From Hexactinellida sp. DTS-2022 (lineage: Eukaryota > Porifera > Hexactinellida), in NCBI GenBank assembly GCA_028753945.1, contig JAPNXP010000004.1:1674001-1738000 (forward strand): DNA of 64,000 bases, in the 5' to 3' direction. This document shows positions 8,551 to 62,745 of the stretch, one piece after another (positions within the stretch are counted from its first letter, which is position 1; every line of letters begins with the position of its first letter). The position numbers and the translations under genes were made by a program. Below the pieces are notes generated by a model that saw only the letters and a program-made list of their open reading frames with translations, ran no database searches and was not told the DNA's origin.

Positions 8551-9130
8551 CACAGTGGCTTAAGCCTAAAATATAGGAATTTCTTGAGTTCCTATTTACA
8601 TTAGTAAATGATTTCAAATCAATCTTGAATGTTTCAGTAATGCTCTGTGAAAATTGTAAGTCAATCTAACGCCTATAGGCTGTAGATAAATATTATCAAA
8701 GTCAAGCAAATCAAATATTTCAATTTGCGGTTTAGAAGAATTCAAAATAGCTGATATTTTGATGTCTATAAATACTATTCGAAGCGATTTATATAGCTAA
8801 ATTTAGTCTTACTTATACAATTAAAGTATGCTGAATTTGAATTTGAAGACCACTTGTGAGTGAATGAATTATTTTTAATAGAATTTTTATTTGAAGTTCC
8901 AAAGTACAAAAAAGGTAAATGATTTCATACAAAAAATTTCAAAGTGAGCGATAAACAAAAAGTCAGAGAAAGTCAATACCATATTAATACATAGTCATAA
9001 TCAATGTCTCTAGTCTTGTCTTAGAAAATATTAGCCCCCGAAACATTGCGCAACATCAAAAATATATCCACATTCCATTCTCTGTTTTGGTGTCTATAGA
9101 ATTCCATTAACTCGTCTTGTAATGTAATAC
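8551..9130 (+). repeat. Left terminal inverted repeat of RAG1-like element
   Basis: This is one arm of the 580-bp inverted repeat; the partner is 11508-12087. It opens with the heptamer CACAGTG. I see no RSS-like nonamer at 12- or 23-bp spacing, so recognition is likely of the Transib/ProtoRAG kind with other internal motifs. Confidence 0.88.
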
Positions 9131-9190
9131 ATATATTTGTTGATTCCAATTTATCTATCAAAGATTTATTACTTTATAATTAATAAGTAG

Positions 9191-11357
9191 CTAACATTGT
9201 TGATTTGAAATATTTAGCTTATTAACAATACTGTCTATTGTTGTTGACTCCAAGATATCAACACTCTCACTCTTGCAGCATTTCGCTCTTCTGGTGTGGC
9301 CATGTTCTCCACATACTTCACAGACAAGCTTTGAACGATATTCAGCGAGTACAGGGTCACTTTCAGATGCCAACCTAACGAATATATCGAAAATATTGTC
9401 CTCGAAACTAGTTTTTTTTGCCAGATTATCCATATATCTTCGTATCAATTTGTTGCAAGCTTCTGAACCTTCCTCTGAAAGACATTTCAAACCATACCCT
9501 GAGTTTATGTCTCTTAAGAGTTCTTCAGAATGCGCTAATACTTTATGCAACGTAGGTGTGATGCTTGCCCAACTAAAGGAGTCTAAAATCAATAGATATG
9601 TATTAGTACAAAGAATTCCAAGTTGGTTAGTAAGGATTTTCCTGTCAGAGTTTATGATTCTGAGAATTGCAGATAGTTGTGCGTGCACGAGTGAAAGTGA
9701 TCCTCTAAATTCAGCTCCAACAACTGACAACACACAGTCCTTAAATCCAGACTCATCAGAAAAAGCCCTCCTAGCGACACTCCCAGTCGATGTAGTTCCA
9801 CCATGCGGGTCTGGCTGATCAACCCGCAATCCTGTTTTTTCTTGGATTAATGTCCGTACGAATATCATTGATGATTTGATACTTGCAGAAGAAGGTGACC
9901 ATTTTAATTTACCAACATTTAAATGGTAAACTAAGAGCATAAACCACCTGAAAATGCAGGTGTAAGAGTGTAGAGGAGATGCGGGGATGATATTTATGGT
10001 GGATAAGGGCTCATGTGTGATATTGTATCTTTCTTTTGAGGGAAGATTAAAAAAAGATTCAGTACTACCTTCAAGTTCTCCAAACAATTCAATTGCGTCA
10101 GATATATGTCTATTAATTGGGAATCCTTGAATGATTAACTCTCAAACCTTAAGTTCTTCGTGAGTGCTGTACACAACTGGCAGTTTCCCACCCTGCACCA
10201 GATAAAATCGCAGCCATTTTGCCATCAAACATTGAACGCATGATGTCAATATGTACATGCTCCTGATTGGAGAGATCGAATCCTTCATTTTTCATCAACT
10301 CTGTATCCGGATTGATTAAATATACCATGAATTGACGAATATTAGCCTCATTTTCTTTGGCAGCACAAAGAAAAATCGGTCTTTGATAATAAGGTGAATT
10401 GGGACTATGATTTTTCCACAATTCTCTTCCGGAACAAGAAGAGATCGCTATTGGTTTGAAGCAGTAAAGTATGAAATTCTTTGTTTCTGTATTTGTGCTT
10501 AGTTGATTCTAAATAACATGACTCCCAGAACCATCTAAGCCATCTGCAATGCGAAACCTCAGTGGAAAATCTTCAGTGGAAGGAGGTGCAATGGTGGTCA
10601 TTATCTTCAATAATGTATGACGAGCATACTGAGCGTAAGGTACTTTAACACCGATTGGAGCTATAGGACTTGGGAGGGTTGAATGATTGAGCGTAGTACT
10701 ATGCAATTTCTATGCTCAGCTAATTTATGGTATGCTGCGAGTTTGAGATGGCTAGATAACAAATGTTGACGAAACCGTGTGTACTTCCTCTTTCCTATTT
10801 CGAGTAAATCTAGAAGGAATAAAGACTTGTTAAGATCAAGCTCCTTCCTCGGAACATTCCCGAATTCACCGTGGAATTTGTCATAGACATTGGATTTTAA
10901 ACTTTCCGAGAATCTTCCTCATTTATTAGGAGCTGTAATGCAAGGGAAGCTATGTTTATCTCTGATGTATTTTCTATTTCCGAAAGTAATTTAATAGAAT
11001 CTAAGACGCTTGACAAGCGTGATCGCATCTTCTTCAAGGAAATGTCACTTAAATTCTTCTGTATAGAGGAACTATCAATTTCAAGATCATCCAGAAGGGA
11101 AATTAGGGTCTTCTTCTGTTTAGGTAGCAAGGAGAGTTCTGAGTTCCACCACTCTCTCTCACAACTATCCAGAATTTTCTTTGCTCTTTTGACAGTGTCA
11201 CGAATTCTGCGGAGCATTGCATGCAAAGAATCTCTTCTTTCTACGTCTAGATCAAGACAATCCTCCAAGTGAGTGTTTGATGGATGTTATAATCATTGTT
11301 CTTCAGCAGTCTTGCTAAATCAAGCCGGGACTTGGGAAGTGTTGGACATTCAGCCAT
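9191..11357 (-). pseudogene. RAG1-like transposase, frameshifted
   Basis: On the minus strand a start at 11357 (MAECPTLPKSRLDLARL) shifts frame near 11275 into 11268-10897. Further breaks fall at about 10700, 10500, 10430, 10180 and 10100, before the long final frame 10087-9191. RAG1-core landmarks remain in order: RIADGLDGSGSHV (first Asp), MFDGKMAAILSGAG (second Asp), CQLC after a shift (zinc Cys pair), PTLHKVLAHSEEL (zinc His pair), EEGSEACNKLIRRY (catalytic Glu), and CEVCGEHGHTRRAKC (C-terminal knuckle). The rebuilt length is roughly 720 residues. It resembles the neighbour at 14161-16029 closely in places but is clearly a different lineage. The gene is dead although its DNA ends are well kept. 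Confidence 0.88.
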
Positions 11358-11507
11358 TGATTGATTATGAAAAAGAATCTTCAATATCCAAATGTAATGT
11401 ACTAAATTGATATACGTATTCAATATGTATATCTAACAATGTCATATGGTTTTCAAATTGAAACACACTAAAGTGGTTGATATGCAATGAATTCACTGAA
11501 TATTAAA

Positions 11508-12087
11508 TTACATACTACAAGACGAGTTAATGGAATTCCATAGATACCAAAACAGAGAATGGAATGTGGATATATTTTTGATGTTGCGCAATGTTTCGGG
11601 GGCTAATATTTTCTAAGACAAGACTAGAGACATTGATTATGACTATGTATTAATATGGTATTGACTTTCTCTGACTTTTTGTTTATCGCTCACTTTGAAA
11701 TTTTTTGTGTAAAATCATTTACCTTTTTTGTACTTTGGAACTTCAAATAAAAATTCTATTAAAAATAATTCATTCACTCACAAGTGGTCTTCAAATTCAA
11801 ATTCAGCATACTTTAATTGTATAAGTAAGACTAAATTTAGCTATATAAATCGCTTCGAATAGTATTTATAGACATCAAAATATCAGCTATTTTGAATTCT
11901 TCTAAACCGCAAATTGAAATATTTGATTTGCTTGACTTTGATAATATTTATCTACAGCCTATAGGCGTTAGATTGACTTACAATTTTCACAGAGCATTAC
12001 TGAAACATTCAAGATTGATTTGAAATCATTTACTAATGTAAATAGGAACTCAAGAAATTCCTATATTTTAGGCTTAAGCCACTGGGG
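11508..12087 (-). repeat. Right terminal inverted repeat of RAG1-like element
   Basis: Reverse complement of 8551-9130 with very few differences. The terminal heptamer is altered (CCCCAGTG) and one base longer than the left end. The gene reads away from this arm, so its promoter probably lies here. Confidence 0.85.
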
Positions 12088-12289: not shown

Positions 12290-12600
12290 GGATGGTGCTG
12301 AACACCCAACATGCATATAAAAATGCTGAATCAACAGCTATTATATTAATACTGAAAATATAATATCTCTGAAATTAAGTGGGCTAGAAGGAAACTTCCA
12401 ACATAATAAGGGTCATTACCTTCCGGAACAACTTTCTGAAATGGTTCAAACAGCTTTATAGTTACGATGACATTACAAAAATATTTAGGATTACAACTGT
12501 AGCCGATATTATTGTTTTAGAGGCACTATCAATCTACCAACCACCAAATATAGTGCCTACCAAAGGAACATGTTGTCGCCAAAAATGTAATTTTAGATTT
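12290..12600 (-). repeat. Dispersed repeat R1, copy 1
   Basis: The reverse complement of this segment matches 16540-16850 (atgttcctttggt, actatattt.ggtggt, ttgatagtgcct, atttcagaaag, gattcagcattttt, gttgggtgtt) and, more weakly, 59230-59460. The 12-kb and 16-kb copies face each other in inverted orientation around the intact RAG1-like gene. Confidence 0.65.
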
Positions 12601-12669
12601 TTTGCCTTTGTCTTGGTCATACGTTTTATGTGGTTAGAGTTAGTATTATAAGAAATGCATTATAATTGT

Positions 12670-13981: not shown

Positions 13982-14160
13982 AAAAACAAAATTGAAGAAC
14001 GAAATACCCATATGCACAAATGGATTTGTAGTACATAAGTATTCAGAAAGCTTTTCCAAAAAATCCGTACCATGGAGAATGGTGGAATTCTCAGATCGAT
14101 TTTAATTGTGACTTAAAAAAGAGTCGTCTATCAACTCCAGCTGACTTTACTACGTCCTCT

Positions 14161-16029
14161 GTGCCTGATGAAAGTAGACCTATCCATAGAAAGAGTCTCG
14201 ATAGTGTTTCTTTGAAACATCAGAGATCACGCCTCTCTAAATTACTGGAGTGCATTAAAGAAATTGCAGACATTGAAGACATGTCAGAAATTTCAATCGC
14301 AGCTATTGCTTTACAATTGCTATCTAATCAAGACGATAACCGTCAGTTAGCTCAGATTTCCAAAAAGATTGCCTATGCTGGAGATTTTAGTGATGCGGTA
14401 ACGAAAAAAGTTCCGATTGATAAGTCGTTGTTTCTTCTTGATTTTTTGGAAATTGGTAAAAGGAAATATACGAGCTTACGTCAGCTTTTAATTCCAAGTG
14501 GTATTGAATTTCCTGCTTATCAGAGAATAGTAGAAGAAAGGAATGTTATCGTCCTACGACCACTTATTCAACTTTATCCAGATCCACAGGCACCAATCGG
14601 TATTTTTATCTCTTATATTCATATAGTCAGACACACGTTAGAAAGAATACTTTCAACTGTACAGCCTGTACTCCCTGAAGAATATCCTCTTACGTTTCAA
14701 TTTGCAGATGGCCTTGATGGTTCTGGCAGTCATGTTATCTACAATCAATCCAAGACAAATAGAGAAACTAAGAATTATATTCTTTTTTGCTTTAAACCAC
14801 TATCAGTGACAAATGTTGAGAACAATGTAATTTGGCAAACAACTTCTCCAAATTCTCCATTTTCACAAAGACCTGTGTTTCTTTGTGCTACCAAAGAGTC
14901 TGAACAAAACATTCTTAAGTTAATGTGTGATCTTATCAACCCTGATACAGATCTCATGAAAAAAGAAGGAATTGCATCACCTGGAGGACTTGTACATATT
15001 AATATCGTTCGTTCTCTGATTGATGGAAAAATGGCAGGGATTCTCTCTGGCGCCGGAGGGGCAAGCTGCCAAATGTGTACAGCAACTCACAATGATCTCA
15101 CAGACCGCGACTTAATATTAGAGGGATTTCCCATTAACAGGCACATATCAGATGCGATCGAATTGTTTGGAGAGCTCGAAGATATTGATCATTTTCTATC
15201 ACTTCCATCTAATCAACGTTATAATCTAACTCATATACCGATTTCCACAATTGATATAAATCCTGCGTCGCCCCTTCATTCCTACACTTGTTTGTTTCGA
15301 TGGTTTAATCTCCTGGTTTATCATTTAAATATCGGGAAGAAAAAGTGGGGCCCAACCAGTCTACAAATTAAAACATCCATGCAATTCGTTCGGAATCTTA
15401 TCGAAGAGAAAACTGGGCTTAGAATTGATCAGCCGGATTCCAGGGGGGGAACAAGTTCTACTGGAAACGTTGCTAGACAAGCTTTCTCAGAATCCAACTA
15501 TATTAAATGCGTTTTATCACTTGTTGATGTTCAATACAAAGATTCACTTTTACAGATACACACAAATATATCGGCTATCTTACGAATAATTAATTCTAGT
15601 CAGAAAGTAAAAACGGATCTTCTTGGTAATATATGTAAAGATACATATATCATGATTCTGGACAATTTTCCATGGGCAAGTATCACACCGACTCTTCACA
15701 AGGTCTTAGCTCATTCTGAAGAACTCATTAGAGAGTCCAATTCAAGTTTTGGCTTGAAAAATATTTCTGAAGAAGGATCTGAATCGTGTAATAAACTAAT
15801 TCGTAGGTATCGCGAGAATTTGTCAAGAAAGATCAGCTTTGAAGCAAATATATCTGACATTTTTGTTAGATTACTATCTGAAAGCGACCCTATATTAATC
15901 AGATTCCGTTCAAAGCTAGTGTGTGAAAAATGTAATACTATCGGACATACAAGTAGAGCAAAGTGCTGCAGGAAGAAGATTCAAAATTCAAATATTGAAA
16001 TTATTGTAAATAGTGTATTATATAATTAA
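14161..16029 (+). CDS. RAG1L: RAG1-like transposase, uninterrupted core
   Basis: Predicted DDE recombinase that cuts at CACAGTG ends, homologous to the V(D)J recombinase RAG1. Numbering from 14161: first Asp D183 in FADGLDGSGSHV, second Asp D288 in SLIDGKMAGILSG, zinc cysteines C303/C306, zinc histidines H513/H518 in LHKVLAH, Glu E541 in EEGSESCNKLIRR. Spacing D-D 105 and D-E 253 matches mouse RAG1 D600/D708/E962 (108 and 254). The tail holds CEKCNTIGHTSRAKC (588-602), the CX2CX3GHX5C knuckle type described in amphioxus ProtoRAG RAG1-like proteins. The frame is open upstream to 14032 without ATG; 14161 is GTG. Homology to the neighbour copy begins at about 14077 (EWWNS), so the true start is either an upstream exon or lost. 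It lacks any RING/N-terminal domain of vertebrate RAG1, and no RAG2-like gene is visible. Confidence 0.9.
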   Translation: MPDESRPIHRKSLDSVSLKHQRSRLSKLLECIKEIADIEDMSEISIAAIALQLLSNQDDNRQLAQISKKIAYAGDFSDAVTKKVPIDKSLFLLDFLEIGKRKYTSLRQLLIPSGIEFPAYQRIVEERNVIVLRPLIQLYPDPQAPIGIFISYIHIVRHTLERILSTVQPVLPEEYPLTFQFADGLDGSGSHVIYNQSKTNRETKNYILFCFKPLSVTNVENNVIWQTTSPNSPFSQRPVFLCATKESEQNILKLMCDLINPDTDLMKKEGIASPGGLVHINIVRSLIDGKMAGILSGAGGASCQMCTATHNDLTDRDLILEGFPINRHISDAIELFGELEDIDHFLSLPSNQRYNLTHIPISTIDINPASPLHSYTCLFRWFNLLVYHLNIGKKKWGPTSLQIKTSMQFVRNLIEEKTGLRIDQPDSRGGTSSTGNVARQAFSESNYIKCVLSLVDVQYKDSLLQIHTNISAILRIINSSQKVKTDLLGNICKDTYIMILDNFPWASITPTLHKVLAHSEELIRESNSSFGLKNISEEGSESCNKLIRRYRENLSRKISFEANISDIFVRLLSESDPILIRFRSKLVCEKCNTIGHTSRAKCCRKKIQNSNIEIIVNSVLYN

Positions 16030-16143
16030 TAAACCTATTTTGAATGAATTAAGGCAATAAGTTAATTAATTTTCTAAGTAATTCCTAGTTACAGTCGACA
16101 TATAATTGCAAAATATTAATTTAAGGGGTTAAATTAATTAATA

Positions 16144-16440
16144 CCAGAAATTATAAAAAAAACACGTTGCATGACGTCATAACAAATACATCTGGAGGCA
16201 TAAAGAATTTTTTATTATGTCAAAAGATGCATAGGCACCGATAACCCATATGTAATTAATTCATAGTACAACGCTAACTCTAAAGAAATAGCGGATTTCA
16301 GAATTTCAAAAAAATAAGTAACATCATCATGACGTCATAACAGACAAAGTATGAGGTGTAAATAAATTTTGATATGACCAAACATTTTCTAAACATCGAT
16401 AACCCATATGCAAATAATACTTATAATAGGCTAAAGTGCA
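16144..16440 (+). repeat. Two diverged ~125-bp direct repeats with TGACGTCAT
   Basis: Units at about 16144-16267 and 16299-16419 share atgacgtcataaca, aaaatt/tttta blocks and cgataacccatatg. Each carries the palindrome ATGACGTCAT (16171-16180 and 16329-16338), a CRE/bZIP-type site. They lie between the RAG1-like stop codon and the element's right end, where transposase-binding subterminal repeats would be expected. Confidence 0.7.
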
Positions 16441-16464
16441 CACAGATATCTATTCCCTACCACC

Positions 16465-16484
16465 TGCGATTTTAAGCCACTGTG
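16465..16484 (-). repeat. Right terminus of the second RAG1-like element
   Basis: Read on the minus strand from 16484 the sequence begins CACAGTGGCTTAA, identical over 13 bases to the ends at 8551 and 5693, then diverges. It lies 455 bp beyond the RAG1-like stop codon, in the orientation expected for a right end. The 5 bp outside are aattg; no matching left flank was found. Confidence 0.72.
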
Positions 16485-16539
16485 AATTGGAAAAAAAATT
16501 ATGTAATAAAATGATATTCAATAAAATACGTAATAATAA

Positions 16540-16850
16540 AATCCAAAATTGCAGCCTGTGCCGACGCATGTTCCTTTGGTGGCACTATATTTTGGTGGTG
16601 GTTTATTGATAGTGCCTACATAGGAACAAGCTGTCGGCTCAGCTGCAATTTTGGATTTTCTTTCGCCATGTCATCATCACTATGAAGGTGTTAAATTATT
16701 TCAGAAAGGAGTTTCAAAAGGCAACGACCCTTAGTGAGTTGGAAGTCTCCATTTAGCTCACTTTATTTGAGAGATATTCAAGTTTCAGTAGAATATAATC
16801 TGTGATGATTCAGCATTTTTTAAGTGCGTGTTGGGTGTTTACCCAACTCC
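16540..16850 (+). repeat. Dispersed repeat R1, copy 2
   Basis: Inverted relative to 12290-12600 and starting 56 bp outside the RAG terminus at 16484. It contains ttggtggtggtttattgata and gattcagcatttttt. No coding potential is seen. Confidence 0.65.
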
Positions 16851-17740
16851 AACCAACCCATGCGAATTATTTAATTCACAAAATTGGAAAAATACATTTT
16901 TTGACGATGTCATCATCACCTTAAGGTGTCAAGATCCACTTGTATAGGTAGTACGTGCCATAAAGACCAATTGATAAATTTAAAGTTTGTTTCTATCTTA
17001 TATCATTTCTGAGATTAATGAAATTTAGAGTAGTATAAATATTTAATTAATCTATTAATAATTTAACACCAATATTATGTACATCAAAATAAATTAAGTT
17101 CAATTATTTGCAATAATTATTAATTTAAATTTAATTTAATTATCATATTTGAATTCAGCGCACTCGATAACCCCAATAATCTATTTGGAACCATCTCTAT
17201 AAGTTAAACACAGAGCGAATTATTTAGAATTAAATTTGTCATGTATCCATTGTGCAAGAATATTCTAAGCAGAAATAAATATACGTAATCACATAATCTG
17301 TCGTTGTTATGGAATGTAGAATCTTAGTTTTCAATTATAAAATAGAAGCCTACTCGATCTCACAAGTTGAATCACTAGAATTATCGCAATGTGAAACAAT
17401 AGAATTAGATTTAACACTTTCAATTGAACTGAAGTGTTAGTAAACAAAGGAAACTTGCAACTCAATTGTGGCACAAACGAAACCCAATTTAAAAATTCGT
17501 GCACTGTGAAAAGGTGTAGAATTTAATTCTCTATCGAATGCATATAAATTAAATATTCCCGCACTATTTATTGTTCTTTTTCAAATATTAAACAGGTGCA
17601 AAAATGTGTCCAAAAAATGTAATAAAAAATTGTGACCCCAGGTGCACATCTGTAACCCATGAGACACCTATCCTGAAATTTTGGGCTCTTAGTTAATAAA
17701 ACTCTGTTCTGTGGAGAGGATACGGAAGGAAAACTAACCA
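16851..17740. other. No recognisable gene
   Basis: Strongly AT-rich unique-looking sequence with no open frame worth reporting and no terminal repeat seen. Confidence 0.4.
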
Positions 17741-17748
17741 AAGCACTA

Positions 17749-17909
17749 AGACCAATACTGGGCCACTATACTATAGTATAGTCGGCACAGTAATAACCAA
17801 GGCAGTAATATTAGAACTGGGCCACTATACTATAGTATAGTCGGCACAGTAATAAAGGCAGTAATCCAATACTGGGCCACTATACTATAGTATAGTCGGC
17901 ACAGTAAAA
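17749..17909. repeat. Tandem repeat with 16-bp perfect palindrome, 3 copies
   Basis: The unit actgggccactatactatag / tatagtcggcacagtaata occurs three times, with spacers of different length (about 24 and 15 bp). Each copy contains ctatactatagtatag, a perfect palindrome, flanked by gggcc and gtcggcac. Spacer variation and the lack of cas genes argue against a CRISPR array. Confidence 0.88.
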
Positions 17910-38829: not shown

Positions 38830-39871
38830 TTACTTCGTAGATATTAAATCCACCCGTAATATAGGTTCATAATGTACTCCATTATGATTAATATAGATAG
38901 AGCCTGCATTATTTCGTAGGGGAGATTCCAAAGTATCAACTAGTATAACCCCTCTATCTGAGAATACCATACCCATACTTGCCAACCGTCCCGATTTTTG
39001 GCAAAGATTTTGTGAATTGTCCCGCGTCCCGCTTTTAGACACGTTTGTCCCGCTTTTAGTACCCTGTATTTCATTTTTGTGACAATAACAATAAAATATA
39101 AAGATCTGAGCATTGCTTCTTCCAATTAGGTAATAAATCTGTAGAATTGACTAGCGTCCCGTTATATTGACGGGACTTCTCGTTTTATGCAATTGGAGTA
39201 AGGTTCCTTCCGTTGAGATAATCAAATTATTACAATTACTAGGATTTTGAACTCTAATTATAGATTATATAGTATATGAATTATTATTAACTAGTAATAG
39301 TAATACTACTTCACTTATTTATGTACTAATGTTCTTTGTCCCGCCAAAATTCCTTATGTCCCGCCAAAATCCATTCCTCCGTCCCGCCAAAGACTTGTAT
39401 TAGGTTGGCAAGTATGCATACCCAAATATCCGTCTGTAGTAATAAGGCCGTAGCAAATAACTCCACATCAGTAGCCCACGTAGAATTCCTCTTCATATTT
39501 GATTTCACTACATAGTCCGCCACATAACGATAGTTAATTACACTCTTCGGAAATTTATTGACAATAAACTTATTGCATGCTTCCTTCAGCTTACCAACCA
39601 TATTCTCTACAACTTTCAACCGTACTAAATTAAAACTATCAATTTTTCCAGTCAACCAGTATGATAATGATGCAAATAAACAATTTCCATCTCCAGGAAT
39701 TCGCAAACACTTCGAAGGAACATAGTCTTTTAAATTAGAAGTAGCTGGGAAGAATTCTCTTATGGAAATTGTAGAATCCGACAACTGTAAATGTAAATCT
39801 TCACATAACTTCTTCTGTCTCCGATATGTAAGTGGTTGGAATGCCGGCAACTTATATTCCATGGTAGCCAT
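38830..39871 (-). pseudogene. OTU-type cysteine protease domain, split by a MITE
   Basis: Minus-strand frame starting at 39871. Around residue 60 it has RIPGDGNCLFASLSYWLTG, the D-G-N-C box with the catalytic Cys, then WATDVELFATALLLQTDIWV. The MITE 38974-39416 interrupts the sequence at that point. Beyond it (38968-38830, one frame shift) the domain finishes with IYINHNGVHYEPIL, which carries the catalytic His. So the protease was complete before the insertion. OTU domains cleave ubiquitin-type links; in transposons their role is not established. It probably formed the C-terminal part of the transposase polyprotein. Confidence 0.8.
38968..39422. mobile_element. 443-bp MITE with 14-bp TIRs and 6-bp duplication
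   Basis: The insert 38974-39416 has perfect 14-bp inverted ends CATACTTGCCAACC. It is flanked by exact catacc (38968-38973, 39417-39422). The interior repeats gtcccgc. It interrupts the OTU domain. A relative is at 48137-48577. Confidence 0.9.
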
Positions 39872-40651: not shown

Positions 40652-43369
40652 CTAAAAATAGTTATGCAAGTTAGTTTGCACAGAGTATTGTATCTTGAGA
40701 TTCGCAACTGAGTCTATGGCAGAGCCAACACTGTTTATGGCTTGAATATTCCCTTTCTGGCCCTGCAGAAATGTATACACATCTTCAAGTGCCAGTAGAA
40801 CCTCCTTGAAATTAGCTACTTTGGATCGAGGTTGTTCAACATCAATATCAACTACTCCTTCTGTACCAGTTACTCGATCCGAATCATCAGAATCATTATC
40901 TTCATCTTGCTGATCTAGCCCAAGTTCTTCCATAAAGTTGACACACCAATTTTCATTGTCTTGGTCATGGCCTACTTAATATACGGCTATATATGTCGCC
41001 GAGAAGGCCATAAAACAAAGAGGCCAGTTTCTGATTTCAAAATGGAGAATTGATCTTTATTCGAATAATTAGCAATGATAGAGCTGAAAAGTGTATTATA
41101 ACTATATAGGAATATGGTATACAGGTATACATAGCACCCTCCATAATTGTGATATGTCATCATCTGATGACGTTGTGGTTATTTTGGTTGCGAATTATCT
41201 TGTTTTTCTAGCATACTTTTAACATAGTTAAACGCGTTATAAATGTTCAAAATTGGAACATGGTTATACCCAGAAGTAGTAGAATAAAATATATCGAAAT
41301 TTTAAATGGAATGTTGACACATTCCTCGGTTTCCATGGAAATGTATATTTCCTAAAATGTGCCATAACTCAAAAACTATGAATGTTATGCAAACTAGACT
41401 GGTACTGATCTGTCCGGAATAGGTAACTTCCTATTCATCGATAATACATTTTATAGGCCTAACTTCAATAATTTTTGAGATAATGAGATAATTTTAACTT
41501 AGTTCATTATTAGGTAATGACTCATTATCTCAAAGATTATTGAAGTTAGGCCTATAAAATGTATTATCGATGAATAGGAAGTTACCTATTCCGGACAGAT
41601 CAGTACCAGTCTAGTTTACATAACATTCATAGTTTTTGTGTTATGGCACATTTTAGGAAATATACATTTCCATGGCAACCGAGGAATGTGTCAACATTCC
41701 ATTTATAATTTCGATATATTTTATTCTACTACTTCTGGGTATAACCATGTTTCAATTTTGAACATTTATAACGCGTTTAACTACGTTAAAAGTATGCTAG
41801 AAAAACAAGATAATTCGCAACCAAAATAACCATAACGTCATCAGATGATGACATATCACAATTCTGTAGGGTGCTATGTATACCTGGATACCATATTCCT
41901 ATATAGTTCTAATACACTTTTCAGCTCTATCATTGCTAATTATTCGAATAAAGATCAATTCTCCATTTTGAAATCAGAAACTGGCCTCTTTGTTTTATGG
42001 CCTTCTCAGCGACATATATAGCCGTATATTAAGTAGGCCATGTCTTGGTCTATGAACACTGGGAGATTATCATCTCCTTGTAGATATTCACCAAAGTACA
42101 ACGATCATCAATAACCATGGACCTCTCAATAAGAGTTTGAATCTCTAATCTGACATCACATTCAAGAAATGGATCTTCACTATCAGCATCATATCCAACA
42201 GTAACAACATCCATCTCATCACTTAAGATTCCAGCTTTTCGGAAACATTTAGAAATTGTTTCCGAATGAACAAAAGACCAAGTCTCGCTCACCCATCTAA
42301 TAGCCGAAAGTATATTCACCGACTTTACAACATCAGAAGCAGTATCACATGAGTCAATCTTTGAGAGAACATACAAGTAGTAAATTTTGAAATTTTGAAT
42401 AATGCCCAAAATCAAGAGGCTGAAGTTTTGATGTGGTGTTAGTAGGCAAAAAAGTAATTTTGATATTGCTAAACTTTGTTGCCAATTATCGGGATGACAG
42501 CCTGCATAATTCATCAATAGTATAATGAAACGGTTAGTACCCATCAATCGACGATTCAATTTTTTAGGACTGTCTCCATGATTTCCTCAGTCATCCATGC
42601 TTTTTTTTGGCTGAAGTAATTTACGGGCAATTCAGATTTATTTATTCCTTTAAGACATCTTGGATTTTCAGATTTCCATATTAAAATAGGCTGTTCTTTC
42701 GTACCAGCTGCGGAAACAAAGAACGCAACAGTTACACGTTGTTTGACTTTCTTTCCTCCTTTACATTCCTTTCCCTTTTCCCCAAATCTGCGATGGGGTA
42801 GAGCCTTCCAAAAAACACAATTCTCATCCTTATTCTATATATCTTCCTTTGTGTAGCCCTGTAGAATCTCAGGGAGCCGCTCTTTCCATTAACATAGGGT
42901 TGGTCCCTGCACATCACCTGACTCTCCAAAATAGTCAACTGTTTCACATTGTATCTCAATTTCCATTTCTGTAACCAGCCCGGAGAACATTTAAAATTTG
43001 AAATCTTAATGCGCTCGGCAATTTCTTTAGCCTTTTCCATGAGCTGAGGTCCTCCTGGAAATATATTCTTCGAGCATGCTAGGATATACCATTCATAAGT
43101 ACTTAGTTTATTTCACTGAATTGTGATTTACGACCTATCACATTTACATGTAGTCTATCCACAGATGCGTTAGACTCATACATGGTAAGAATTGATTCCT
43201 TGTTCTTGAGGATTCTTGCAATTTGAGTACTACAACACGTGAAAACTTTCTCTATTCTTCTGATACTGATGCCTGGAATATTTTCAGTGAAGTGAATCAA
43301 TTCAACTTTCTTCTTCAGATTTAGAAATTTTATCTTATTTGGTACTAGACTAGACATCCTATTAATCAA
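40652..43369 (-). pseudogene. Tigger/pogo transposase (CENP-B-type HTH, DDE_1)
   Basis: Minus strand, four blocks. 43369-43103: first HTH, KKKVELIHFTENIPGISIRR and TQIARILKNKESIL. 43040-42732: second CENP-B-type HTH, AKEIAERIKISNFKCSPGWL, then after a frame change KDENCVFWKALP with the first catalytic Asp. 42559-42050: GIIQNFKIYYL and SAIRWVSETWSFV, the end of the DDE_1 core, followed by the acidic tail. 40933-40652: FKEVLLALEDVYTFLQ, the C-terminal helix. A 1.1-kb palindromic element separates the last two. Several frame changes make it inactive. It is unrelated to the host Mutator-like element. Confidence 0.85.
40958..42050. mobile_element. 1.1-kb palindromic foldback element R2, 9-bp duplication
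   Basis: 40967-42041 is one near-perfect palindrome with arms of about 530 bp around a centre near 41500. It starts ATGGCCTACTTAATATACGG and ends with the inverted copy. Flanks are exact gtcttggtc (40958-40966, 42042-42050). Nine-base duplications point to Mutator-type transposase. Single-arm relatives lie at 12670-13060 and 63340-63860. Confidence 0.92.
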
Positions 43370-53766: not shown

Positions 53767-55779
53767 ATGTCTAACTTATGTTCTGTCCCCGGAGCAAGAG
53801 AAACTACAACCCAGATGACCATGTTCCTGTGTTCAAGATGCCTCAAAATCCACCAACCCTGAATCATGCCTGGACATGCGCTCTTTTTCGCGAGGATTTC
53901 GGTGACCTGAAGGTGGTCTATGTATGTATCGACCATTTTCAGAAAGAAGACACAGACTACACTTTCCAAGTCCCAAAAGGAGATGGTACTTTTACTGAAG
54001 TACCGCGAGCGAAGCCAAACCTGAAGGAAGGCGCTCTACCAAGTTCACTAACTCGCTGCCCAGCATATTACTCATCCAAACCTAACAAACGGAATCGCTT
54101 CTCATACGATGCTAAAGAGGAAGAATTGATGAACCAAGCACTACAACGCAGCTTGAGATCCGAGAGTCAAGAGAAAGAGAAGTTTGTGGTAACTCTCCAC
54201 AGGACTTGAAGATAAGTTAACCTTGATTTATTTACCTAATAGTTGGTTGGTGTGGTTTCCTTAATGAGAGCAACATAACGTTTGTTCTCGCTAAAATGGC
54301 TGAAAAAAAATCTCAGTAGATTTGTACCTTGAAATCAATGCTTATTTATCCACCTCAGCCTATTTTAATGGACAGAGTATATCCGTTCCCATTGCTGCAT
54401 TAGTGACATCCGAGAAATTGAATCTGTTTTGCAAGAACTTGCTTTAAAATTCAACTCTAGTTCCTATTGTGATTATCCCCTTAAGTTCGGTTGTGCATCC
54501 TTTGAAAATGTACGTCAATTATATAACTCAGAAAGAACAAGTTTAACCAAGTTATCTCCTCATTTGACTATGAAGTCCTGTTTTCCGTCTTGCATAGAGC
54601 GTCAAAATGTCAATCAGGTTTTGAAAGTCGTAAACGAATTAAAAATATCTTCGCTAACTATTCAGAATATAGAAAGAATACTCCTGAGTTTGTTGATAAC
54701 CTTCTTACTGTTTGGAAATTATTCAACGTGAACATACCATATAAAGGAATACGTTTGAACGATAATTTCTCTAGACCTTTGACCTTTAATGACGAGCGAT
54801 TTCTATTTTTGACTCGTGTAGTTTTGGTTAGATGCTTGGCAAACTGAGTAAACAAACATACACCAGTTTAGACATGCTTGTATTGCCTTACCACAAATTA
54901 CCAATCATTTGACTCAAACTTGTGGCTTTACATAGTATGTGTTGTCCTCCTTTCTACAGATGGATCCCTTGGAACACCATTTCGGTCTATACCGTATGAT
55001 GTCGGCTTATAATTATCACATCTCCTATCTTCAAATCCTTGAACCGAGCGTCTACTTAAACTTTCTAGCATAATGAAACATATTTACTGACCAACAATAC
55101 ACTTCCTTTAAATCTATTCAGTCATTAGTTAAGTCATTTTCTTCTCCGTATAGCGTATTCCAATACTGATGGTGAGTTAAATTTGGAGCCATTTCTTGAT
55201 GCGATTAATGATTTATCAACAATTGATTGTGGTTCACAGTTGCTTCAATCATTAGCCTTTATTGCGGGCTATACTGTCCATCAGTACCTGAAATAAACAA
55301 AACCGTGGCATGTATGTCTACATATGTTAACAGTTGATAAATAATTTCTCCCTGATTTAGACCTGGACTCTCAGTATAAACTTCTGCAGCTAACGGACCG
55401 TGGCGGACTTAAATATCCATCTGAGCCAGTTTTAATTTCCATAATTGTTATATGGAAGACCTTTAGTGCAATCGAAAACAATAAAGAGCTGATGGCGAAG
55501 CTTGTAAGTGGACCTTCTAGAAAAATACTAGTTGAACTCACGTTGATGTATTTGGAAGATAGTGATAATCGTGATCCAAGTATTTGGAAGTCTACTTGTA
55601 TTAGCTGTGGTGTGTTTAGTTGGAACATCTTATCGAAGCTAGTCTTTACCGCAGCGAATTGCTTTCTTGCAAACAAAGTTAAGAATTATAACTCGCTGGT
55701 TCTTTCAAAAAGTATAGAAAGCGTAAATTTAAGAAATTCTCTTAATTATGTGTCTACATATTTGTATTTTATACCATGA
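53767..55779 (+). pseudogene. P-element-like transposase with THAP finger
   Basis: ATG at 53767 (MSNLCSVPGA, where the second THAP Cys is replaced by Ala), one frame shift, then HAWTCALFRED and VYVCIDHF, the rest of the C2CH finger. GALPSSLTRCPAYYSS marks the end of the THAP domain. Later blocks are LSPHLTMKSCFPSCIERQNV (54575), FNVNIPYKGIRLND (54725), DPLEHHFGLYRMMSAYNYHI (54962) and DRGGLKYPSEPVLISII (55395), which occur in this order in THAP9/P-type transposases. Multiple frames and stops indicate decay. It is a different copy from the one at 1-1271. Confidence 0.75.
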
Positions 55780-60440: not shown

Positions 60441-62745
60441 CTATTGTGTTTGTATGTATGCAATGTTAAAGAGGTGTGTTTTAAGAAGGTTTTTGAATAC
60501 ATCGAGGGATTGAGATTGCCTAATCTTGGAGGGCAGGATATTCCATTCAGTGGGGGCGGCGAAGGAAAATGAACGGCTGCCGTGTGTCTTGGATAATCTG
60601 ATGGGAAGATGTTCAAGTAGGATAGCGTTGTTTGATCTTAGTGTTCGATGCGTTTGCTTGACCTTAATTAGCTCAGTGATGTAGTCAGGAGCCATATGGT
60701 GAATGGCTTTAAAAGTAATGATGAGGATTTTGAAGATGTTGCGGTACTTTACAGGCAGCCAGTGGAGTTCGAAGAGGAGGGGATAGGATGGTGTGAATCT
60801 GGATGTGTTGTGAATTAGTCTGGCTGCGCTATTTTGGACACGTTGGAGACGGGAAATGAGTGTAGAAGGGTGGCCATAGAGTAAGGAGTTGCAGTAGTCC
60901 AGACGTGATGTGACGAGTGCATTGACAAGCGTCTCACAGGCGTTGTGCGAAAGGTATTTCGGATGCGTCGGATGTTGTAGATATAGTAGAAGCAAGACGA
61001 AGCAATCTTGGTGACATGAGTAGACATTGATAACGTGTTGTCAAACCAAGAGCCGAGATTTTTCACTTCTTTGGACGGCGAGATTGAAGAGTTGCCGACG
61101 GAGATTGTGTTGATAGAGGTTTTAGACAGTTGGTGGAGTGTTCCGATGATCTGGAACTCCGTTTTGGTTTCATTTATAAGAAGTTTGTTGTTGAGGAGCC
61201 AGAGGCGGACGTCTGAAATACAAGATTATATGGCTTGGAGTGCCGAAAGCTCAGATGTTAGAGAGTTGGGTGTGAAGGATAGATAAAGCTGGGTGTCGTC
61301 AGCGTAGCAATGCATCTCAGGTAAATGCGATTTGATAAGATCAAATAGAGGACTTGTGTAGAGTGTGAATAGAAGTGGTCCGAGGCAGGATCCCTGAGGG
61401 ATTCCGTGTAGGACGGGTAGTGCAGGTGAGCTTTTCCCTTCTATATAGACAGACTGCGTTCTGTTGGAAAGGTAAGATTCGAACCAAGAGAGAGAAGAAC
61501 CACAGATGCCGAAATGCGATTGGAGACGAGTTAACAGGATGGTGTGGTCGACTGTATCAAACGCAGAGCTGAGGTCTAGAAGTACAAGGAGTGTAAGATG
61601 TTGCTGGTTCATATTTAGTAGAATATCATTCTTTACTTTCAGGAGCGCAGTCTCGGTGCTATGATGTCTTCGGTATGCGGATTGAGTCTTGGGGAAGAGG
61701 TGGTGAGCTGTGATATGGTCAGCAACCTGTGTAGCAGCAGCTTTTTCAGTCAGCTTGCAGAGAAACGTAAGATTGCTGATAGGACGGTAGTTCGAGAGGA
61801 CAAGTTCGAAATTTGCTTTTTTCAGCTTAGGGTAGATGATGGCATGTTTCCAAGGTGATAGAACCGTTCCAGTGGAAAGGGATGTGTTGATGATTGTGTT
61901 CAGTATAGGACCGATAATGTCCACCGAAGATTTGATCAGATGGGTTGGGACGGGATCGCTGTTGCAGGTCTTATTTGGGGCGGTTACTATCATAAGTTTG
62001 GTATCGGCAACAGAGAGAGGTTGAAACTCAGAGAATAGATGGCGGGAGGTTGGCTCAGGATCAGAAGTTGAATTTTTAGAATGTGATATGATCGGGTTAG
62101 TAGTGGAGTCGATGGTATCCCTGATGTTGTTGATCTTCATTGCGAAGAATTTGGAGAATTCTTTTGAGAGAATAGTAGCATCTGAGTGAGGTGGTAGATC
62201 AAGCTTCTGCCGAATTCCAAGCAGGGCATTTGCCTTCCGAAACAGCTTCCGTTGGTCATTCCCATTCTGGCTAATCCAATCGCTGTAGTAGCATCGACGC
62301 TCTCGGGTCAATAGGTTTGTTACTGAGTTCCTCTTGTGCTTTAGATCTACTAGGTCGTCAGAGTGCCTAGAGTGGCGCCATTTACGTTCGGCCTTCCTAC
62401 GTAGGCGTTTGAGACTCTTGATGGTTGAGCTGTACCAGGGGACGCGATGTCGAGTAATGATGGTTTTAGTTCTCAGGGGTGCATGTTTTTCGTAGATGGA
62501 ACGTAATGTGAAGTCATAGCAATTGAGAAGTTCTTCAGGGTTGTCAGGGGGATTTAAGCATAGGTCGGAGGATGCGAGATCATCAAGGAATAAAGGGAGG
62601 TTGATAGATTTAGGACGGAACTTGACCTTCTGTGTGATGAGTTGCGGCTTTGAGATAGAGAGAAGACATGAGATAGAGAAGTGATCAGAGAATAATTCAT
62701 CAGCTACAGGTTCAGAGTGGATGATGTCGTCAGATGATCGTGTGT
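60441..62745 (-). pseudogene. LINE endonuclease/reverse transcriptase ORF2
   Basis: The frame is open from about 62745 to 61226, well upstream of the first Met-like codon. It starts with the end of the endonuclease (HSEPVADELFSDHFSI). The RT follows: LSNYRPISNLTFLCKLTEK, LVLLDLSSAFDTVDHTILL (first Asp), HGIPQGSCLGPLLFTLYTS, MHCYADDTQLYLSF (catalytic YADD). A stop at 61226 (SALQAI*SCISDV), then the same frame resumes, and a frame shift near 60960 leads to the C-terminal block with LVTSRLDYCNSLLYG, LQRVQNSAARLI and LHWLPVKYRNIF. Only about two lesions, so this copy is fairly young. Confidence 0.9.

Follow-up and report, generated by a model that had tools for sequence, protein, structure and literature searches.

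Transib-like transposons are the presumed ancestors of RAG1 and of its signals. Transibs themselves are single-gene elements that lack a RAG2-like (RAG2L) gene, and autonomous Transibs typically occur singly or a few times at most, according to the consulted part of Kapitonov and Koonin (2015, PMC4411706). HzTransib from Helicoverpa zea (PDB 6pqn) uses the catalytic triad D126/D225/E436 (excerpts of PMC6941560), residue numbers that give a triad spacing of 99/211, and its terminal inverted repeats (TIRs) are called symmetric in the relevant section of PMC8289069. For amphioxus ProtoRAG/RAG1L (PDB 6b40), the sections drawn on from PMC7204232 and PMC8289069 describe asymmetric TIRs, a nonamer-binding domain (NBD) and a C-terminal CCGHC tail, and the latter source gives spacers of 27/31 bp. 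Asymmetric, 12/23-like TIRs have also been attributed to Transibs of a fly and a mosquito in PMC8355894, which cites its reference 8 for them. Subgroup I Transibs combine asymmetric TIRs with an alpha11-alpha12 region, a CTT1 tail and an NBD, and the same study describes a RAGL transposon in an alga whose spacers of 4/13 bp amount to a 9-bp offset (Tao et al. 2022, PMC9435367).

The window analysed here is a stretch of 64,000 nucleotides from a glass-sponge genome. Reading its open reading frames bears out the initial annotation in that an uninterrupted frame of 622 codons, free of stops, occupies positions 14161-16029 of the plus strand. This frame very probably belongs to a Transib, a cut-and-paste DNA transposon, in a copy that formed recently and is truncated at its 5' end. 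The features of the copy are given below, with residue numbers counted in the window frame unless they are said to be those of L009, a full-length sibling located elsewhere in the genome.

14072 to 16484, plus strand: 5'-truncated Transib element of family F1, 99.7% identical to sibling L009:3900-6314 (blastn, 20 fetched loci)
14032 to 14160, plus strand: in-frame open stretch 5' of the listed start, with homology to the sibling from 14072 and no in-frame ATG until 14281
14161 to 16029, plus strand: Transib transposase frame of 622 codons, counted from a mechanical GTG and equivalent to residues 96-717 of the 717-aa L009 protein
14182 to 14340, plus strand: nonamer-binding-domain-like region, residues ~8-60 of the frame (P0001), from a profile of nine related frames
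14716 to 14718, plus strand: catalytic D186, aligned with HzTransib D126
15022 to 15024, plus strand: catalytic D288, aligned with HzTransib D225
15067 to 15078, plus strand: zinc cysteines C303 and C306, invariant columns C398/C401 in L009 numbers
15121 to 15264, plus strand: putative alpha11-alpha12 region, ~48 residues, as defined in PMC9435367 and placed here from sequence only
15697 to 15714, plus strand: zinc histidines H513 and H518, invariant columns H608/H613 in L009 numbers
15781 to 15783, plus strand: catalytic E541, aligned with HzTransib E436
15922 to 15966, plus strand: C-terminal CCHC-type knuckle CEKCNTIGHTSRAKC, matched by Pfam zf-CCHC_6 below the cut-off (E = 0.14)
16445 to 16484, minus strand: right (3') TIR with its tip CACAGTGG at 16484; in the full-length sibling L009, the TSD follows this same end

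The frame contains a DDE core that is homologous to the Transib transposase. The Pfam RAG1 model PF12940 matches it with E = 4.8e-8 and 32 bits, above its cut-off of 25, and the best match among solved structures is HzTransib at 94 bits (E = 7e-26), compared with 48 bits for amphioxus RAG1L and at most 28 bits for vertebrate RAG1. In the alignment, identity to L009 is 27% for HzTransib and 22% for amphioxus RAG1L. The protein thus lies within the RAG1/Transib group to which the initial annotation had assigned it. Residues D186, D288, E541, C303, C306, H513 and H518 are invariant with respect to both HzTransib and amphioxus RAG1L, and all but the first of these had been named correctly. The aspartate previously proposed as the first catalytic residue, D183, is three residues off, since it is D186 that aligns with HzTransib D126, whereas HzTransib has a lysine in the D183 column. 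These correspondences use an offset of 17 between the numbering of the PDB chain and the published numbering, which is our own reading and fits all three catalytic residues. The triad spacing in the window frame is 102/253, so the claim of a spacing identical to that of mouse RAG1 (108/254) holds only approximately.

Three accessory parts accompany this core. When a profile was built from the N-terminal region alone of the nine related frames, its top structure match was the RAG1 NBD (3gna, E = 2.5e-5); all 16 matches below E = 0.01 are RAG1, and 2 more matches up to E = 1 are unrelated. The window frame retains this NBD-like region without a native start ahead of it. The solved chain of HzTransib aligns only downstream of the NBD-like region. 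As judged from sequence, the alpha11-alpha12 stretch of ~48 residues can be aligned to amphioxus RAG1L, whereas HzTransib has 13 residues in its place. The C-terminal knuckle reported earlier is present as C588-x2-C591-x3-G-H596-x5-C602. The window copy shares this pattern with 7 of 13 fetched frames, among them L027 with S for G, and the pattern is absent from the other 6, among them L024, whose frame end reads on into other sequence. When the C-terminal tail alone was used as a query, it gave five weak matches, none of them to a RAG protein.

We searched the whole genome (112.4 Mb in 18 contigs, including the window) for related copies. The sibling L009 (C17:2322789) is a complete element of 3,326 bp that encodes a 717-aa protein, carries CACAGTG at both tips and is flanked on both sides by the TSD CTGTT; its borders were set beforehand from sibling copies, and they recur in other copies. 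It therefore has the heptamer-like tips and 5-bp TSD of a Transib, and the window copy retains the right end only. No second ORF of more than 70 aa was found in the L009 element, which accordingly has the single-gene organization of the Transib superfamily and lacks the linked RAG2L gene of RAG1L/ProtoRAG elements. A genome-wide search with the RAG2 profile PF03089 gave no match, but it likewise gave none in 14 of 14 control genomes.

Comparison with L009 shows where the window copy is incomplete. The copy begins inside the gene, at residue 67 of the L009 protein. Nothing in the window significantly resembles the left 911 bp of L009, which comprise the left TIR, the native ATG and the codons for the first 66 aa; the best alignment spans 16 bp (E = 0.049). 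The GTG at 14161 is a mechanical start, and the earliest in-frame ATG is codon 41, at 14281; in principle, an exon further upstream might provide one. Having kept the right TIR and lost the left end, the window copy possesses neither two ends nor a complete gene, and the description of it as intact does not stand. Its description as young fares better: the alignment with L009, 2,415 columns long, shows 5 substitutions and 2 gaps of one base each, and because these differences are so few, the sequence supports a young copy. Selection on the window copy, which had also been suggested, is not supported, since the open-frame differences to L009 number three, too few for a selection test, and all change an amino acid (one lies upstream of 14161) while none is silent. 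As for the statement that all other transposases in the window are broken, it is correct for the sole other Transib that tblastn found there, which is the part of the claim that our search covered.

Given that the core frame is fully open with its catalytic and zinc residues in place and that the left TIR is gone, one might suppose that this is a domesticated RAG1-like host gene, held under selection after loss of a transposon end. We regard this as very unlikely. At 99.7% identity to a sibling whose ends are complete, the copy has had little time to become domesticated, the three amino-acid differences against no silent ones in the open frame run counter to it, no in-frame ATG occurs before 14281, and the right TIR is still present. 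Somewhat less improbable, though still poorly favored, is the idea that the family belongs to a RAG1L (ProtoRAG-type) lineage that has lost its RAG2L partner. This idea overlaps with the preferred one, as the window copy is truncated either way, and it draws on the relationship of the NBD to the RAG1 NBD and on the alpha11-alpha12 stretch and C-terminal knuckle, both of which have been described for RAG1L. The same features, however, are reported in Subgroup I Transibs (Tao et al. 2022, PMC9435367), the scores (94 bits for HzTransib against 48 for amphioxus RAG1L) and identities to L009 (27% against 22%) are higher for HzTransib, and the sibling element has no second ORF of more than 70 aa. 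Thus, the initial label of RAG1-like holds at the level of the superfamily, but the element is of the Transib rather than the RAG1L type. The absence of a RAG2-like gene, which the initial annotation had remarked upon, is to be expected because the element is a Transib.

There is next to no chance that the frame belongs to an intact element bounded by the long inverted repeats that occupy 12301-12601 and 16538-16839. The two arms are inverted, 76% identical and bracket the frame, but they are copies of a repeat that several of the other fetched loci also contain, in different surroundings, and the Transib stops at 16484, short of the right arm. We rejected these repeats as TIRs on the basis of the sibling borders and TSD; they represent another repeat that imitates long TIRs. 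A recently truncated Transib copy remains the preferred reading, and the recency of the truncation would explain why the core is still open. Deletion, failed gap repair or a rearrangement may have removed the 5' part.

The window copy is one of many. The genome holds at least 79 matching stretches (71 of 1,097 first-look candidates were scored), a number that counts stretches rather than elements, and 17 of the 79, the window copy included, run without a stop across 570 or more of the 622 residues. Between families (both "families" and "TIR types" being groupings made in this analysis), amino-acid change is 0.21-0.33 against raw silent change of 0.76-0.84 in 6 pairs; silent sites are saturated at this distance, so that the direction of the difference alone was used, and 3 within-type pairs are too close to tell. 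At the level of sequence comparison, this direction shows apparent purifying selection between families, as expected for working transposases. Family F1 also includes no fewer than 15 shorter copies (1,805-1,829 bp) that retain both ends, as paired from end-match positions. Examples such as C18:1385799-1387603 and C9:1194285-1196092 match the first 120 bases of L009 at 97-98% identity, and the short copy in L011, which was partly fetched, has lost internal sequence, its deletion junction showing a 7-bp overlap. From their sequences, the short copies look like non-autonomous elements moved in trans, and their near-uniform size suggests that one deletion derivative has spread. The notion that the 1.8-kb copies encode an NBD-only repressor was rejected, as the L011 copy, the sole one partly fetched, has a shifted frame.

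We next consider the element ends. TIR/TSD pairs were identified by a script that accepted a pair if it had a heptamer-like tip, resemblance in the first bases and no more than one mismatch in the TSD, so the tips and TSDs of the scripted pairs are partly a product of the selection rule. With one copy taken per TIR type, CACAGTGG stands at both tips in all 11 types, and 10 of them have an exact TSD, L025 having one mismatch. Copies of the same type were dropped (L016 and L018 as L017, L020 as L019, L034 as L033, and L027 as L032, although L027 has its own offset of +14 and a 5' end 4 bases shorter than that of L032), as were the F1 copies L010, L011, L015 and L028, which are like L009, and L013, L023, L024 and L031, for which no pair was found.

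In 9 of the 11 TIR types, the best offset places an inner block that is common to both ends 9-10 bp deeper at the 3' end, in a contest that omitted offsets within 2 of zero (a near-zero match scores higher in L017 and L026). Shuffled controls gave a mean of 0.86 types and a maximum of 4 of 11 in 500 shuffles; the shuffling was by single bases and ignores relatedness among elements. In F1, whose TIRs are thus asymmetric like those of Subgroup I, the offset is +10 and was reached by 2 of 500 shuffles. Tested element by element, the observed block was reached by at most 15 of 500 shuffles in 9 of 12 elements, while L012 (84/500), L014 (224/500) and L026 (323/500) are not significant alone. L014 and L026 do not have a 9-10 bp offset. 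The inner block matches within an element and differs between families. An offset of 9-10 bp is about one helical turn and is reminiscent of 12/23 spacing.

The offset is not general, as the other Transib in the window has ends of another design.

8551 to 12087, minus strand: second Transib element, its gene broken into several frames, with TIRs of ~580 bp at 8551-9128 and 11507-12087

The arms of this element are 98.6% identical with tips CACAGTGG/CCCAGTGG, and its TSD was taken to be CATGA, the right end carrying an additional G. Together with the related L037, L038 and L039, it forms a group with symmetric TIRs of ~560-585 bp whose arms are 94-99% identical. The same long-TIR design is seen at C18:3493203-3497342 and C18:3890904-3895666, and a 1.57-kb long-TIR copy at C10:2494244-2495815 has no detected gene. 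Long symmetric TIRs, a twelfth type, count against the generality of the offset.

Other repeats and ORFs were observed in the window as well. Positions 17735-17907 contain ~3 tandem copies of a 59-bp unit that contains ACTATACTATAGTATAGT, an 18-bp perfect palindrome, as well as the string GGCACAGTAA; similar units are present in the Transib loci L016, L017 and L026. ORFs with OTU protease (39326-39871, minus strand), DDE_1 (42050-42559, minus strand), THAP (53778-54209, plus strand) and reverse transcriptase (61226-62311, minus strand) domains follow in that order, and at least the DDE_1 and reverse transcriptase ORFs look like pieces of other mobile elements.

Relatives of the family were sought by three protein searches, and among the best rows of each (87, 73 and 107, each of 8,000 scored), all rows that name an organism name the glass sponge Oopsacas minuta, most rows being nameless. 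Most of the sequences P0002-P0123 carry the precomputed Pfam label PF26100.1, a model that is missing from the Pfam scan of six. One scan each of bacterial and viral collections yielded 76 and 92 pattern matches, respectively, and tblastn confirmed none of them. In a tree of 32 sequences, the window copy and L009 fall in a clade with two Oopsacas minuta proteins with support of 100. Oopsacas sequences join sequences of this genome at three places in the tree, which indicates that several lineages are common to both genomes. The outgroups HzTransib and amphioxus RAG1L have very long branches that make the root unreliable and gain versus loss of the knuckle unreadable. L025 groups with P0043, P0064, P0076 and P0075 of Oopsacas minuta, and these sequences are far more alike across the two genomes than those of other lineages in the tree; this likeness could reflect recent transfer or slow change.

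Given these features, the sponge elements can be set against the described systems. They share with HzTransib the catalytic triad and zinc residues, and with amphioxus RAG1L the catalytic and zinc residues and, in the alignment, the alpha11-alpha12 stretch; they differ from ProtoRAG in that L009 has no RAG2L gene and in their lower similarity to it than to HzTransib. Like Subgroup I, they have asymmetric TIRs, an alpha11-alpha12 region, an NBD, an RSS-like heptamer and an element free of RAG2, with a possible type-1 tail, in the form of a knuckle, in some lineages. Unlike Subgroup I, they reside in a glass sponge (the main text of PMC9435367 names no sponge), with many families per genome, some lineages without a knuckle and one with long symmetric TIRs. 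The many Transibs in this genome also depart from the one or few copies given as typical in the consulted part of PMC4411706. Searches by title or abstract (Transib with sponge or Porifera, and the glass-sponge genome literature) found no publication on sponge Transibs, and the main text of the two glass-sponge genome papers, PMC10282587 among them, contains no mention of Transib. The sponge Transib family falls within the known Transib kind, and the parts that deserve further attention are the offset, seen in many of the families, and the lineage with symmetric ends.

Likeness to vertebrate RAG1 and its 12/23 RSSs extends to the heptamer CACAGTG, homology of the NBD and bipartite ends with two spacings, but the inner block is not the RSS nonamer, the offset is 9-10 bp rather than 11, and the element is still a transposon. 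RAG and Transib enzymes nick at the heptamer, form a hairpin on the flank and insert with a 5-bp stagger. By analogy with this superfamily biochemistry, the sponge transposase would nick at the heptamer using D186/D288/E541, a hairpin would form on the flanking DNA, and insertion would occur with a 5-bp stagger of which the TSDs would be the trace. The N-terminal NBD, joined by the C-terminal knuckle where one is present, may read the inner TIR block, and the short-spaced 5' end may pair with the long-spaced 3' end, thereby aiding assembly of the complex. The window copy would make no full transposase and be incapable of autonomous movement.

We tentatively propose that glass-sponge Transibs practice a 12/23-like pairing without RAG2, in which the offset inner block is read by an NBD that is homologous to the one in RAG1, and only short/long end pairs are joined efficiently; we consider this possible, though the odds lean against it. 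If it is true, one lineage would have escaped the pairing rule by means of symmetric 580-bp ends, and the families with differing blocks would constitute a natural series of NBD-block specificities. The window copy itself is a dead-end fragment of lesser importance. It seems that an early-branching animal lineage harbors a large set of Transibs in which an NBD of the RAG1 type is found together with the RSS heptamer in its exact form and with ends whose spacing is shifted by roughly one DNA turn, and this set makes the idea of spacing asymmetry before RAG2 testable. If the proposed pairing holds, bipartite asymmetric end recognition would predate the gain of RAG2.
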